This document shows, one piece after another, positions 35,865 through 40,279 of a DNA stretch of 40,279 bases. The notes under the pieces are model-generated. The model ran no database searches and was not told the DNA's origin. It was given only the letters and a program-made list of their open reading frames with translations. The stretch covers positions 1 to 40,279 of the forward strand of contig NZAZ01000024.1 of NCBI GenBank assembly GCA_002686255.1, read 5' to 3'. The DNA is from Rhodospirillaceae bacterium (lineage in GTDB: Bacteria > Pseudomonadota > Alphaproteobacteria > Rhodospirillales > Casp-alpha2). The position numbers were made by a program, and so were the translations under genes. Numbering within the stretch: the stretch's first letter is position 1; the number at the start of each line of letters is the position of its first letter.

Positions 35865-37175
35865 TCATTGGGCAGCCGCCGTCGTTTGCGCGTGGTCGTG
35901 GAACTGGTCGGTCTCGGTGGAATCGCCCATTGCCGTGGTTGAGGTCGCGCCCCCCGAAAGCGCCATGGCCACGGCGTCGAAATAGCCGGTGCCGACCTCG
36001 CGCTGGTGGCGGGTGGCGGTGTAGCCGTTGGCCTCGCTGGCAAATTCGGCCCGTTGCAGGTCCACGTAACCCGACATGCCCTGCTGGACGTAACGTCGGG
36101 AAAGCTCGAACATACCGTGGTTGAGCTGGTGGAATCCGGCCAGCGTCACGAACTGAAACCCGTAGCCCATGGCCGCTAATTCGGTCTGGAAATCGGCGAT
36201 GGCTTGGGGGTCCAGGTTGGCTTCCCAGTTGAACGAAGGTGAGCAGTTGTAGGCCAGAAGCTTGCCAGGGAACTCTTCGTGGATGGCGTCCGCGAACGTG
36301 CGGGCGTCGTCCAGGTTCGGCTTCGACGTTTCCCACCATATCAGGTCCACGTAGGGCGCATAGCTGAGGCCGCGGGCGATACAGCTCTCGAGGCCCGCGC
36401 GCAGCCGGTAAAAGCCCTCGGGCGTGCGTTCGTCGCCGGCGATGAACCGGCGGTCGCGCTCGTCGATGTCGCTGGTGATGAGTTGGGCGCTGTCGGCGTC
36501 GGTGCGGGCGATGATAAGCGTCGGCACGCCCATAACGTCGGCGGCGAGGCGCGCCGCGTTCAGGGTCCGGATGTGCTGCTGCGTCGGGATCAGCACCTTG
36601 CCGCCGAGATGCCCACACTTCTTTTCGGACGCCAACTGGTCCTCGAAATGCACCGCCGCAGCACCGGCCTCAATGAACGCCTTGGTGATCTCGAAGGCAT
36701 TTAACGGTCCGCCGAATCCCGCTTCGGCGTCGGCGACGATGGGCGCGAACCAATCGATGGTGGCGCCGTCCTCGCAATGCTCGATCTGGTCCGCCCGCAG
36801 GAGCGCGTTGTTGATCCGCTGGCAAAGCTGGGGTCCCGAATTGGCGGGGTAAAGACTCTGGTCGGGATATATGGCGTTGGCGGCATTGGCGTCGGCCGCG
36901 ACCTGCCACCCGGACAGGTAGATCGCTTTCAGTCCGGCCCGAACCATTTGAACCGCCTGATTGCCGGTCATGGCGCCGAGCGCGCACACGCGGTCATCGG
37001 TTCGCAGGGATTCCCACAGCCGGTTGGCGCCCCGTTCGGCGAGGGTGTGGGCTATTGGCACCGACCCGCGAAGCCGTTCGACATCGGCCGGGGCGTAATC
37101 CCTGGCGATGCCCTGGAAGCGGGAGACTAGCGCGCCGGGAACGAGATCTTCGAATTTCTGGGCTTGTCCGGGCAT
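35865..37175 (-). CDS. aceA: Isocitrate lyase
   Basis: The 436-residue enzyme splits isocitrate to glyoxylate and succinate in the glyoxylate bypass, needed for growth on acetate or fatty acids. The catalytic signature is K185-K-C187-G-H-L-G-G192 in [22 protein letters not shown]. Other blocks are [43 protein letters not shown] (metal-binding region) and [16 protein letters not shown]. Its length is normal for the short bacterial form. AGGAGG lies 9 bases upstream of the ATG. It is divergent from the ScfR-like regulator gene, and the shared AT-rich interval carries repeated ATTGYAA half-sites, so it is very probably controlled by that regulator. No malate synthase gene is in the window. Confidence 0.97.
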
Positions 37176-37216
37176 GGTCGTGGGCCTCCTATGTAGTGAA
37201 GTTGGATAAAAAACTA

Positions 37217-37324
37217 TTACAATCTTTATCCTTTACATCACGTCGTCAATAACATATTGCAAATAAAAGGTTATTATGTTTAGTCTTTGATATCATTTTT
37301 GTTCAAATTGTAAAGATTGTAAGG
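37217..37324. promoter_or_regulatory. Cluster of ATTGYAA operator half-sites between aceA and scfR-like gene
   Basis: TTACAATCTTTA (37217-37228) is perfectly inverted as TAAAGATTGTAA (37311-37322). The latter lies in a tandem 9-base repeat, ATTGTAAAG-ATTGTAAGG (37307-37324). A further ATTGCAAAT is at 37256-37264. These resemble the TTGCAAA-type motifs bound by RamB, PccR and other ScfR-family regulators. The interval 37176-37338 is strongly AT-rich compared with its surroundings and must hold both promoters. Confidence 0.6.
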
Positions 37325-37338
37325 TTTCGACAAGCGGG

Positions 37339-38781
37339 ATGGCGACGGGCCAGAAAAAGATCTTCCCCGGCAGGCGCATCCGAAGGCTGCGCCGTGAGTT
37401 GGGCTTGACCCAGAAGGCGATGGCCGACGACCTGAGCATTTCATCCAGTTATCTCAACCTTATCGAACGCAACCAACGCCCGCTCACGGTGCAGTTGTTG
37501 TTGCGCCTTGACGACATCTACGACGTCGACTTGAAGGAGCTGAGCGGCGAGGACGATGCCCGGATTGCCGCGTCCCTTAAGGAGGTGTTCAGCGACCCGC
37601 TGTTCCAAAACCTCGAAATCACCAACAACGAACTGACCGATATCGTGGGCGCCAGCCCGGATGCCGCCCAGGCTATGTTCAAGCTCTATCGGGCCTATCG
37701 CGAGACCATCACCAACGCCGCCGCCGTTACCGAGCAAATGGCCGATGGAGAGGTCGCCATCGACATCGACGCCAACCAGTTTCCCGTCGACCAGGCACGG
37801 GATTTCTTCCACGACCACAACAATCATTTCCCCCAACTGGAGACGGCGGCGGAGACGCTGTGGGCGGACGCTTTGGAGGACGCCGACGATCTCAATTACG
37901 CGCTACGCCAGCACCTCAAGCGGGCCCATGGCTTCACGGTCAAGGTCATGCCCATCGACTTCATGCCCGATCTGCTGTGGCGCTACGACCGGCACTCAAG
38001 CCGCCTATTCCTCTCGGAGATGCTGGGCCACCCGGGCCGGACCTTCCAGTTGGCGTTCCAGGCCGGGATCCGAAGCCACCGCGAACTCATCGACGGCATC
38101 ATCTCGGAGGCCGAAGTAACCGGCGACGAGGCAGTGCAGCTTTGCCGGCTGGGGCTGGCCAACTATTTTGCCGGCGCCGTCATGATGCCCTATGAACGGT
38201 TTCTCAATGCTGCCGAAAAACAGCGCTACGACATTGAGATCCTGGCGCGGCGGTTCGGCGCCAGCTTCGAACAGATCTGCCACCGGTTAACCACCCTGCA
38301 ACGGCCCGGTTCCCGGGGCATCCCGTTTTTTTTCCTGCGGATCGACCGGGCCAGCAACGTCTCCAAGCGGTTCAGTTCCGGCGGCTTCCACTTCGCGCGT
38401 TTCGGCGGAACCTGTCCCAAGTGGAACGTCCATGAGGCCTTCCGCACGCCCGGCAAGATCGTAACCCAGGTCGTGGAGATGGAGGACGGCACCGCCTATT
38501 TCTCCATTTCCCGCACCGGGGCCGGATCGGGCGGCGGCTTTCATCTTCCGGAGCAACAATTAGCCATCGGCATGGGGTGCGAGATCAAGCACGCGCGCCG
38601 TCTGGTCTATGCCGACGGCCTGGACCTCGGCGATCGGGCAAACGTGACACCGATCGGTGTCAATTGCCGGCTTTGCGAGCGTGTGGATTGCCACCAGCGA
38701 GCCTACCCGCCTTTGAACCGCCGCATCTCCGTTAACGACACCTACCGCGGATTCGTTCCGTTTTCCTTCGCCGAGTTGTAG
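37339..38781 (+). CDS. ScfR/RamB/PccR-like short-chain fatty acyl-CoA regulator
   Basis: The 480-residue regulator has an XRE-type helix-turn-helix at about residues 12-66 (RIRRLRRELGLTQKAMADDLSISSSYLNLIERNQRPLT), an IrrE/ImmA-like central region (about 180-310) and the DUF2083 C-terminal region with the cysteine cluster VNCRLCERVDCHQRAYPPLNR near the end. Proteins of this family (RamB in actinobacteria, PccR in Rhodobacter, ScfRs) sense acyl-CoAs and control glyoxylate-bypass and propionyl-CoA genes. Divergence from aceA and the shared ATTGYAA sites support control of aceA and of itself. In the central domain the zinc-protease motif HEXXH is not evident. The start at 37339 has a modest ribosome site. 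Confidence 0.9.
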   Translation: MATGQKKIFPGRRIRRLRRELGLTQKAMADDLSISSSYLNLIERNQRPLTVQLLLRLDDIYDVDLKELSGEDDARIAASLKEVFSDPLFQNLEITNNELTDIVGASPDAAQAMFKLYRAYRETITNAAAVTEQMADGEVAIDIDANQFPVDQARDFFHDHNNHFPQLETAAETLWADALEDADDLNYALRQHLKRAHGFTVKVMPIDFMPDLLWRYDRHSSRLFLSEMLGHPGRTFQLAFQAGIRSHRELIDGIISEAEVTGDEAVQLCRLGLANYFAGAVMMPYERFLNAAEKQRYDIEILARRFGASFEQICHRLTTLQRPGSRGIPFFFLRIDRASNVSKRFSSGGFHFARFGGTCPKWNVHEAFRTPGKIVTQVVEMEDGTAYFSISRTGAGSGGGFHLPEQQLAIGMGCEIKHARRLVYADGLDLGDRANVTPIGVNCRLCERVDCHQRAYPPLNRRISVNDTYRGFVPFSFAEL

Positions 38782-38826: not shown

Positions 38827-39090
38827 CTACCCGCCGCCTTTCTGGAACATGCGCTCGAAGAGATCGAGCTGGGCCGCCCGTTCGGAGTCGGTGTAACCCG
38901 AGAACTCCAGCCTCACGTCGGTGGCCGGGACCCTGAGGTTGGCGATGCGGCGTTCCCGTTCGGGCCCGAGCGTGATCTCCAGGCGCTTTTCGCCGTCTTC
39001 CAGGATCACGCCGTCCGGTTTTTTCTCGAAATTATCGGTGCCCAGCACACGGGGAATAATGCGGAAGAAATCCGCGTGGGTCAGCGCCAT
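38827..39090 (-). CDS. Small conserved protein ending in Gly-Gly-Gly
   Basis: The 87-residue protein reads MALTHADFFRIIPRVLGTDNFEKKPDGVILEDGEKRLEITLGPERERRIANLRVP ... LFERMFQKGGG, with a beta-rich middle and a helix near the end. The last three residues are glycine. It follows the MoaD/ThiS-like gene after 44 bases, and that in turn follows the flavoprotein gene, so the three form one operon. I do not recognise a named family. A GTG at 39129 with a good AGGGGG ribosome site would add 13 residues; I kept the ATG because the homologous-looking part starts there. The gene ends convergently 45 bases after the regulator gene. Confidence 0.6.
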   Translation of the reverse strand: MALTHADFFRIIPRVLGTDNFEKKPDGVILEDGEKRLEITLGPERERRIANLRVPATDVRLEFSGYTDSERAAQLDLFERMFQKGGG

Positions 39091-39134
39091 TTTCTTCTCG
39101 ACGGCAACCGGGTCCGGGGTCGCGGCCACGACCC

Positions 39135-39386
39135 CTATCCCCCTGCGACGGGCGGCCAAACGGCCAAATGGTCGCCGTCCTCCAGGACGTTGGCCGCCCT
39201 TTCGCTCGGGGCCAGGAAGACGCCGTTGACCAGCACCAGGTGGCAGACCTCGGGCGGCAGGCCGAGCCGCGCCAGGGCGGCGGCCGCCGTCGTACCGTCG
39301 GCGAAGTCCATGTCGGCCTGGTTGCGGGAACTGCCGTCCGGAAGGTATTCGTCCAGATTGGCGTAAAGCTTGACGCGGACGATCAT
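39135..39386 (-). CDS. MoaD/ThiS-like sulfur carrier protein
   Basis: This 83-residue protein has a ubiquitin-like fold pattern: IVRVKLYANLDEYLP at the start, the family middle ALARLGLPPEVCHLVLVNGVFLAP, then ERAANVLEDGDHLAVWPPVAGG. The C-terminal Gly-Gly is the site that is activated by E1-like enzymes and thiocarboxylated in MoaD and ThiS. In clusters with FAD/NAD oxidoreductases such proteins often accompany tungsten- or molybdenum-dependent aldehyde:ferredoxin oxidoreductases. No E1-like enzyme is in the window. The start is three bases after the flavoprotein stop, so translational coupling is likely. Confidence 0.8.
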   Translation of the reverse strand: MIVRVKLYANLDEYLPDGSSRNQADMDFADGTTAAAALARLGLPPEVCHLVLVNGVFLAPSERAANVLEDGDHLAVWPPVAGG

Positions 39387-39389
39387 CGA

Positions 39390-40279
39390 CTAGGCGACAG
39401 CGGGATAAAGGGCGGTGGCCACGTAGGCCTCGGCGATGCGGTGCGGGTCGGCGATCAGCTTTTCCTTCCACGCGCCCAGCCGCACCGGCGTCTGGATCAG
39501 CCCGCGCAGGACGCCGACGTAGTCCGTGCGTCCCAAGGTCAGCGAGCCGACGATGCGGTCGTCTTCGAACGCCAGGCGAATGTAGCGGAATTTTTTCTCG
39601 TCGAGGGCCTCGGCGAAATCGCTGCCGTCCACGCCCTGCCAACGGCCGAAGGACGCCGAGATCAGCCCCGCCGTATCGAGCACGTTCATGGCCAGGCTGC
39701 CCCGGAAGCGGACGTCCCGCCCGGCCATGTTGAGCGCCGCCACGCGCCCGTGATCCACCGCCGTCGGCTGCACCGCGTGAATCGACCAGCCACCGCAAAA
39801 ATCCGGCCCTTCGGCAACGTCGCCGGCGGCATAGATGCCGTCCACGGACGTTTTCATGCGGTCGTCAACGACGATCCCGTCCTTGATTTCGACGCCGGAG
39901 GAATCCAGGAACCCGGCGTTGGCCCTGACCCCCGTCGCCACCACCACCAACACCGCCGGCACCGCGTCGCCGTTGGAGAGGTGGACGCTCAGGCCCTTCT
40001 CGCCCGCTTTTTCCACCTTCACCGCCTGGGTTCCGGTCAAGACGGCGACGCCCTTGGACTCGCACCAGCGTTTGAGCATGGCGCCCCCGGTATCGTTCAT
40101 CATCCTGGGCACCATGTGGTCTTCCATTTCGACCACGGTCAGCTTGACGCCTCGTGAAATCAGGCTTTCCAGGATGATGCAGCCGATGAAGCCTGCCCCC
40201 ATCAGCACCACGTCGGCGCCGTCGTTCGCCAGGGCGGAGATGTTGCGGGCGTCTTCCAGGGTCCAGCAATGATGCACGC
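39390..40279 (-). CDS. FAD/NAD-dependent pyridine nucleotide-disulphide oxidoreductase family protein (partial)
   Basis: The gene runs off the end of the window, so its N-terminal FAD domain (at least about 100 residues) is missing. What is present starts at the NAD-binding domain: HHCWTLEDARNISALANDGADVVLMGAGFIGCIILESLISRGVKLTVVEM (Rossmann motif GAGFIG), then VLVVVATGVRANAGFLDSSGVEIKDGIVVDDRMKTSVDGIYAAGDVAEG, the second FAD-binding stretch. The C-terminal dimer domain is replaced by a region with RYIRLAFEDDRIVGSLTLGRTDYVGVLRGLIQ, as in nitrite reductase-type and AOR-associated flavoproteins. No redox CxxxxC is seen in the visible part. It is upstream of the MoaD/ThiS-like gene in one operon. 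Confidence 0.85.
   Translation of the reverse strand, partial: VHHCWTLEDARNISALANDGADVVLMGAGFIGCIILESLISRGVKLTVVEMEDHMVPRMMNDTGGAMLKRWCESKGVAVLTGTQAVKVEKAGEKGLSVHLSNGDAVPAVLVVVATGVRANAGFLDSSGVEIKDGIVVDDRMKTSVDGIYAAGDVAEGPDFCGGWSIHAVQPTAVDHGRVAALNMAGRDVRFRGSLAMNVLDTAGLISASFGRWQGVDGSDFAEALDEKKFRYIRLAFEDDRIVGSLTLGRTDYVGVLRGLIQTPVRLGAWKEKLIADPHRIAEAYVATALYPAVA

Follow-up and report, generated by a model that had tools for sequence, protein, structure and literature searches.

A small protein with a conserved glycine end, AorE, accompanies one type of tungsten AOR and may take part in its maturation

At the end of a 40,279-nucleotide stretch of DNA from a Rhodospirillaceae bacterium (assembly GCA_002686255.1, contig NZAZ01000024.1; hereafter the window), a partial flavoprotein gene is followed on the minus strand by a gene for a MoaD/ThiS-like protein and a gene for a protein of 87 amino acids. 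Both small proteins end in Gly-Gly. A preliminary description of this three-gene run, which our analysis confirmed, suggested either a two-carrier sulfur relay or the maturation of a tungsten or molybdenum enzyme encoded just outside the window. What, then, do two proteins with such an end do side by side, and is the second one a carrier at all?

The contig continues past the window end, to 53,632 bases, and the remainder of the flavoprotein gene is found there together with two further genes, upstream in the direction of the operon. One of these encodes a tungsten aldehyde oxidoreductase (AOR; PF01314, PF02730), as had been suspected. The genes are listed below, with L004 as our handle for the extended locus.

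aorE, 38827 to 39090, minus strand: 87 amino acids, C-terminus FQKGGG; predicted helix, four strands, helix and loose glycine tail; no Pfam or NCBIfam family.
aorD, 39135 to 39386, minus strand: 83 amino acids, MoaD/ThiS family, C-terminus WPPVAGG; Pfam ThiS 34.2 bits (cut-off 22.5).
aorC, 39390 to 40277, minus strand: FAD/NAD oxidoreductase, 3′ part inside the window; complete (416 amino acids) at L004:1393-2640.
aorB, L004:2694-4538, outside the window, same direction: tungsten-type AOR, 615 amino acids; PF01314 461.9 bits, PF02730 197.8 bits.
aorA, L004:4543-5067, outside the window, same direction: 4Fe-4S protein, 175 amino acids.

Based on the two profile matches, the AOR large subunit contains both the AFOR_N and the AFOR_C domain, and it shares the operon with an Fe-S small subunit and an FAD subunit in the order A-B-C. 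These five genes form an aorABCDE operon, whose C, D and E products are the flavoprotein, the MoaD/ThiS-like protein (described beforehand as ending PPVAGG) and the 87-residue protein. We infer the name AorE from the position of its gene as the fifth of the operon and from its presence in 33 of 35 AOR-positive genomes, a comparison made among sequences other than that of Aromatoleum AorE (WP_041646407).

Ambiguous bases are frequent towards the 5′ end of aorB (L004:4236-4428); L004 as a whole contains 45 N, one of which falls within aorC. Beyond aorE (window positions 35865-38781) lie an isocitrate lyase gene on the minus strand and a gene for a RamB/ScfR-like acetate regulator on the plus strand, the latter convergent with the aor operon. 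Upstream of aorA, serC and serA, which encode phosphoserine transaminase and phosphoglycerate dehydrogenase, are found at L004:5695-8539; the same neighbours occur in several relatives, at L035, L038, L039, L049 and L059.

The aorABCDE operon of Aromatoleum aromaticum (AOR_Aa) has the same layout, with genes for Fe-S, tungsten and FAD subunits followed by two small genes. Its aorA-C encode the purified enzyme, and aorD and aorE have been named putative maturation factors in the published accounts (PMC6365974, PMC9295118). By analogy, the AOR encoded here would be linked to NAD. Association of moaD with AOR has been known since 2006, when MoaD genes neighbouring those for AOR and pyridine disulfide oxidoreductase were described and proposed to serve the tungsten cofactor (Iyer, Burroughs and Aravind, PMC1779556). 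Those clusters share the MoaD-AOR-oxidoreductase grouping with the aor locus, and we found no AorE-type protein in the description given of them. Since at least 2019 aorE has been known as a putative maturation factor (PMC6365974, PMC9295118, PMC10413684); in these three papers we found no account of its tail, its fold or its distribution.

We found that AorE follows the enzyme. The window's genome and its relatives comprise 61 genomes, 42 of which have AorE, and each of these 42 also has a PF01314 match (in G002 the match is fragmentary and falls short of the family cut-off). Twelve of the 19 genomes without AorE have no PF01314 match. Of the others, G001, G005, G008 and G017 have a distant paralogue only, G035 apparently a second AOR type only and G022 fragments; G036 has a strong AOR match, and the downstream side of its operon runs off the contig.

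A second sample consisted of 399 genomes of the order of G079, which we take to be Burkholderiales because the AorB of G079 is 99% identical to a Hydrogenophaga one. AorE was found in 33 of the 35 genomes with a strong AOR match (E below 1e-100), at most 13 candidates being scored per genome, so that an AorE may have been missed. The other two, G502 and G568, are 84-85% complete. The 355 genomes without a PF01314 match gave a single AorE call, in G284 (E 8.6e-4, tail unmatched), which we judged false. Seven of the nine genomes with weaker PF01314 matches have no AorE; the exceptions are G613, with AOR fragments on the same contig, and G577, in which only another AOR type was found and AorE lies 428 bases from the contig start. 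The association between AorE and strong AOR gives a Fisher p value of about 2e-42, with G284 counted and shared ancestry ignored.

At the level of loci, AorE lies alongside AorB in 74 of the 80 AorB loci listed, a list without Aromatoleum. For two of the six loci that lack an adjacent aorE (L088, L093, L116, L143, L149, L152), AorE is present elsewhere in the genome and ends RGGG: G456, a Serpentinimonas MAG (L088), and G457, a Rubrivivax MAG (L143). No AorE was detected in G458 (Tepidimonas alkaliphilus), where aorD is present, also with a Tepidimonas query. None was detected in G459, G460 or G461, whose contigs stop soon after aorB.

A tie between AorE and AOR of any kind is not supported, as G001, G005, G008 and G035, which have other or weaker AOR only, are without AorE. 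Two plasmid AOR loci with MoaD and no FAD subunit show no AorE-type gene in the incomplete gene table of PLSDB. At one plasmid locus (L075, Azospirillum thermophilum, NZ_CP029357.1), genes for an Fe-S protein, AOR and MoaD directly precede NADH-quinone oxidoreductase-like genes, and neither an FAD subunit nor AorE is listed. A weak AorE-like stretch without a tail was found in G017 (L161, G017:C6:125129-125293; E 7e-4), whose AOR is a distant paralogue only. It may be a decayed aorE remaining after AOR loss, or chance.

Could the co-occurrence merely reflect a shared operon? The complete order A-B-C-D-E is found in 24 of 35 wide loci, and another five show B-C-D-E truncated at a contig end. 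AorE also accompanies AOR when unlinked, so linkage is not the sole cause: it is distant from aorB on its own in G050 and G037, with aorD in G303, and with aorC and aorD in the closed genome G052. In G329, aorE is divergent from aorABCD. The AorE gene of G042 is at a contig end and was left out of the unlinked set. We therefore reject operon hitch-hiking as the whole cause, the pairing persisting unlinked in several genomes. The one-contig genome G052 carries its aorC-aorD-aorE cluster (L058, G052:C1:2620500-2636000) apart from both of its AOR genes.

Judged from the alignments, the most conserved part of AorE is its glycine end. We examined 153 loci and found AorE in 147, of which 146 are complete at the C-terminus (145 distinct sequences, L071 and L113 being identical); L062, cut by a contig end, was excluded. 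All 146 end in Gly-Gly and 142 in Gly-Gly-Gly, with no residue beyond, in a search whose model spans the tail columns and thereby makes a tail-less distant homologue somewhat harder to detect. Comparison of homologues had been proposed as a check on the importance of these glycines, and the last two proved invariant and free of extensions. The tails are RGGG (127), KGGG (14), RAGG (4) and SGGG (1), with Arg or Lys at position -4 in 145 of 146. The count includes two N-terminally incomplete sequences, L061 and the frameshifted L019, and excludes three weak tail-less matches, those of G284 and G017 and a second one, with a stop, in G464. In a smaller, earlier set, 28 of 29 complete AorE ended in [KR]GGG and the remaining one in RAGG.

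An alignment of 85 diverse AorE sequences, with identities to the window's down to 23%, gives the same picture: invariance is confined to the start M1, G86 and G87, residue 85 is Gly in 84 of the 85, and residue 84 is Arg or Lys in all. At the nucleotide level, each of the four Gly codons and each of the three stop codons occurs at this end. Because all four Gly codons are used, the constraint acts on the protein, and chance or a nucleotide constraint can be ruled out, the tail also being kept where AorE is unlinked or divergent. Of the 85 sequences, 41 have a Cys as residue 3; no other Cys or His is conserved, so AorE is not an obvious enzyme.

AorE does not resemble a second MoaD. For the window's protein, neither Pfam nor NCBIfam gave a match up to E 1. 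A scan of 25 diverse members against Pfam at E up to 10 gave six families, each hit by one member only and none better than 0.015, and four members scanned against NCBIfam gave none. None of the AorE proteins scanned matched the ThiS/MoaD profile, and profile-profile comparison with AorD gave a probability of 0.1%. The 87-residue protein is thus as unrelated-looking as initially described. Both small Aromatoleum proteins were said in 2019 to be MoaD-like (PMC6365974); for the 87-residue family this wording is unsupported, because of the 0.1% profile-profile probability.

The structure prediction that had been called for was run and yielded no beta-grasp. Two AlphaFold models, one built from 29 sequences and the other from 85 (mean pLDDT 77 and 81, pTM 0.61 and 0.65), agree in placing one helix at residues 5-16 and another at 68-83/84, with four strands lying within residues 22-64 and a loose tail at the end. 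This predicted fold does not match the beta-grasp order of strand-strand-helix-strand-strand. In terms of the MoaD/ThiS sulfur carriers, AorD belongs to the family by profile; AorE shares their small size and terminal Gly-Gly, but it matches no ThiS-family profile and its predicted order is helix, four strands, helix. As far as profiles and models can tell, AorE is not recognisably MoaD-like or beta-grasp.

Foldseek searches with the AorE models gave nothing at E below 0.001, and searches of PDB sequences with AorE profiles gave no useful match. Structural re-alignment listed KA1 domains, that of Chk1 scoring Z 8.0 and 7.6. It also listed the Thermus thermophilus MoaD-related protein 1v8c, whose residues 94-165 overlay AorE (Z 6.8 and 6.7, 2.2 Å, 71 aligned residues) at the lowest rmsd among the rows listed. 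Z values of this size are common. We take KA1 and the C-terminal domain of 1v8c to belong to the TBP-like fold class, and the latter domain to be DUF1952 (PF09189). The overlay with 1v8c falls within the range of a common arrangement and has no DUF1952 counterpart in sequence, as PF09189 matched neither the window's genome nor the scanned AorE proteins. Among 14 control genomes it matched only Thermus composti, and a PF09189 search on two Thermus plasmids for the MoaD-related gene returned no result.

The layout of 1v8c is resembled by natural fusions. An in-frame fusion of aorD and aorE without an aorD stop, with a 10-residue linker, was found only in G009 and G002, both of the window's genus. 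In G009 (L039) the whole reading frame covers 180 amino acids. In G002 (L019, G002:C77) the linker has the same length and the aorE part is then frameshifted, with the KGGG end in another frame. The Gly-Gly of AorD becomes internal in these fusions, and that of AorE stays terminal. In the window and the other loci that carry both, aorD and aorE are separate genes. AorD ends exactly at Gly-Gly in 136 of 141 loci; the five extended cases are the two fusions and three unfused proteins with 1, 2 and 9 further residues. Fusions and extensions come from draft genomes, and single cases may be errors.

E1-like genes had been named as ones to look for upstream of the window end; the operon has none. 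The only E1-like match of the window's genome, of MoeB type, is on another contig and scores 325.1 bits against the SAMP-activating E1 model, below the cut-off of 450. Besides AorD, this genome has two further ThiS-family matches, of which one lies next to moaE (C102) and the other is on C160. MoaE gave one match in each of 42 genomes tested, picked from 66 with and without AorE. From the single E1 match and the single MoaE match it follows that both enzymes are presumably common to AorD and the housekeeping MoaD.

Published expression data bear on what the pair does. Specific activity was 4.5 U/mg for recombinant aorABC alone, 16 U/mg when aorDE was co-expressed and 85 U/mg when tungstate was supplied as well; without extra tungstate, the addition of aorDE lowered tungsten content from 1.06 to 0.39 (Table 1 of PMC9295118; single values, with aorD and aorE added together, so that the effect is not separable to AorE). 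Dividing the specific activities by the tungsten contents of that table, we obtain 4.2, 41 and 56 U/mg per mol W, and 16 for the native enzyme. Most tungsten bound without aorDE is therefore inactive, given 4.2 versus 41 and 56. Because activity per tungsten rises with aorDE and tungsten content drops without extra tungstate, the effect fits making the site correct more than metal loading. A 2026 account (PMC13197769) states that the tungstate-inserting enzyme has not been conclusively established.

Taking these observations together, we tentatively propose, at a little under even confidence, that the aor operon encodes a three-subunit, FAD-containing, NAD-linked tungsten AOR together with a dedicated maturation pair, AorD and AorE, and that the Gly-Gly-Gly end of AorE is used chemically. 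The idea of a maturation pair draws on operon order, co-occurrence, persistence when unlinked, conservation of the tail, the single MoaE and E1 and the published aorDE effect. Going by what is known of the family, AorD would be adenylated and thiocarboxylated by the only E1-like enzyme detected in the genome and would give the dithiolene sulfur together with the only MoaE detected. AorE, which by our comparison accompanies this AOR type in nearly all sampled genomes, linked or not, and with an exact Gly-Gly end, would then act beside AorD to render the bis-pterin tungsten site active. Its Arg/Lys-Gly-Gly-Gly end would most likely be a second C-terminal sulfur carrier or acceptor, which would give AorE a ubiquitin-like tail on a fold other than that of ubiquitin. 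Opposed to the pairing are the AOR-positive genomes in which AorE was undetected (G502, G568, G036, G458, G459, G460 and G461) and the converse case of G577, with AorE and only another AOR type.

Whether the tail is charged or only binds is the closest decision. A charged tail, as in a second carrier, is the reading that we place first, although we regard it as falling short of an even chance. The absence of an E1 gene from the aor operon and the fold of AorE, not recognisably beta-grasp, argue against it; for MoeB-type E1s, recognition involves the beta-grasp body and not the tail alone. In addition, the cryo-EM study (PMC10413684) could not resolve the two small tungsten ligands and was fitted best by a dioxo model, so that no terminal sulfido ligand in need of an extra carrier is evident. 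Among the papers searched, none dealt with sulfide activation of tungsten AOR.

The strongest alternative, which we rank second and consider a real possibility, casts AorE as a chaperone or adaptor specific to AOR, with a tail that docks and takes no part in chemistry. This tail would thread a narrow channel, such as the MoaE tail groove or the AorB cofactor cleft, and thereby aid assembly or insertion of the bis-pterin cofactor. The compact predicted fold without conserved catalytic residues and the genome-wide association of AorE with AorB are in keeping with such docking, as are the AorD-AorE fusions, which suggest side-by-side action; E1 charging, moreover, would be unusual on a fold other than that of MoaD. 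However, docking does not obviously need an end that is exactly Gly-Gly in 146 of 146 proteins.

It is improbable that AorE belongs to the AOR complex or its filament as a minor structural component, with a glycine tail that only fits an interface: AorE is found with AorABC-type AOR operons and the Aromatoleum AOR forms filaments (PMC10413684), but AorD and AorE are not in the enzyme as purified (PMC6365974). Least probable of all is a protein modifier whose C-terminal glycine is joined to a target, as in SAMPs or Pup, a role that the exact free Gly-Gly end, the Arg or Lys four from the end and the below-cut-off score of the genome's E1 with the SAMP-activating model would suit, but that is at odds with an occurrence tracking one enzyme type.

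Returning to the charged tail, its most far-reaching form would make AorE the first of a class of carriers, with ubiquitin-type Arg-Gly-Gly chemistry on a non-beta-grasp fold, charged by the shared MoeB-type E1, confined to tungsten AOR and working in a two-carrier relay with AorD. We think this rather unlikely. The interpretation offered at the outset is thus partly supported: operon, co-occurrence and the published aorDE effect tie two Gly-Gly proteins to AOR, while the two-carrier sulfur relay stays a hypothesis, the single E1-like match lying on another contig and AorE not being recognisably ubiquitin-like.

Little is known about the assembly and activation of bis-pterin tungsten sites, and AorE may point to an undescribed step in the activation of tungsten enzymes. 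It is short and dedicated to a single type of tungsten enzyme, its one obvious mutable feature is the tail, and a recombinant host exists. If the tail is only docked, it may reveal the site of cofactor insertion. If it is charged, E1-type chemistry would not be confined to ubiquitin-like folds in this pathway.
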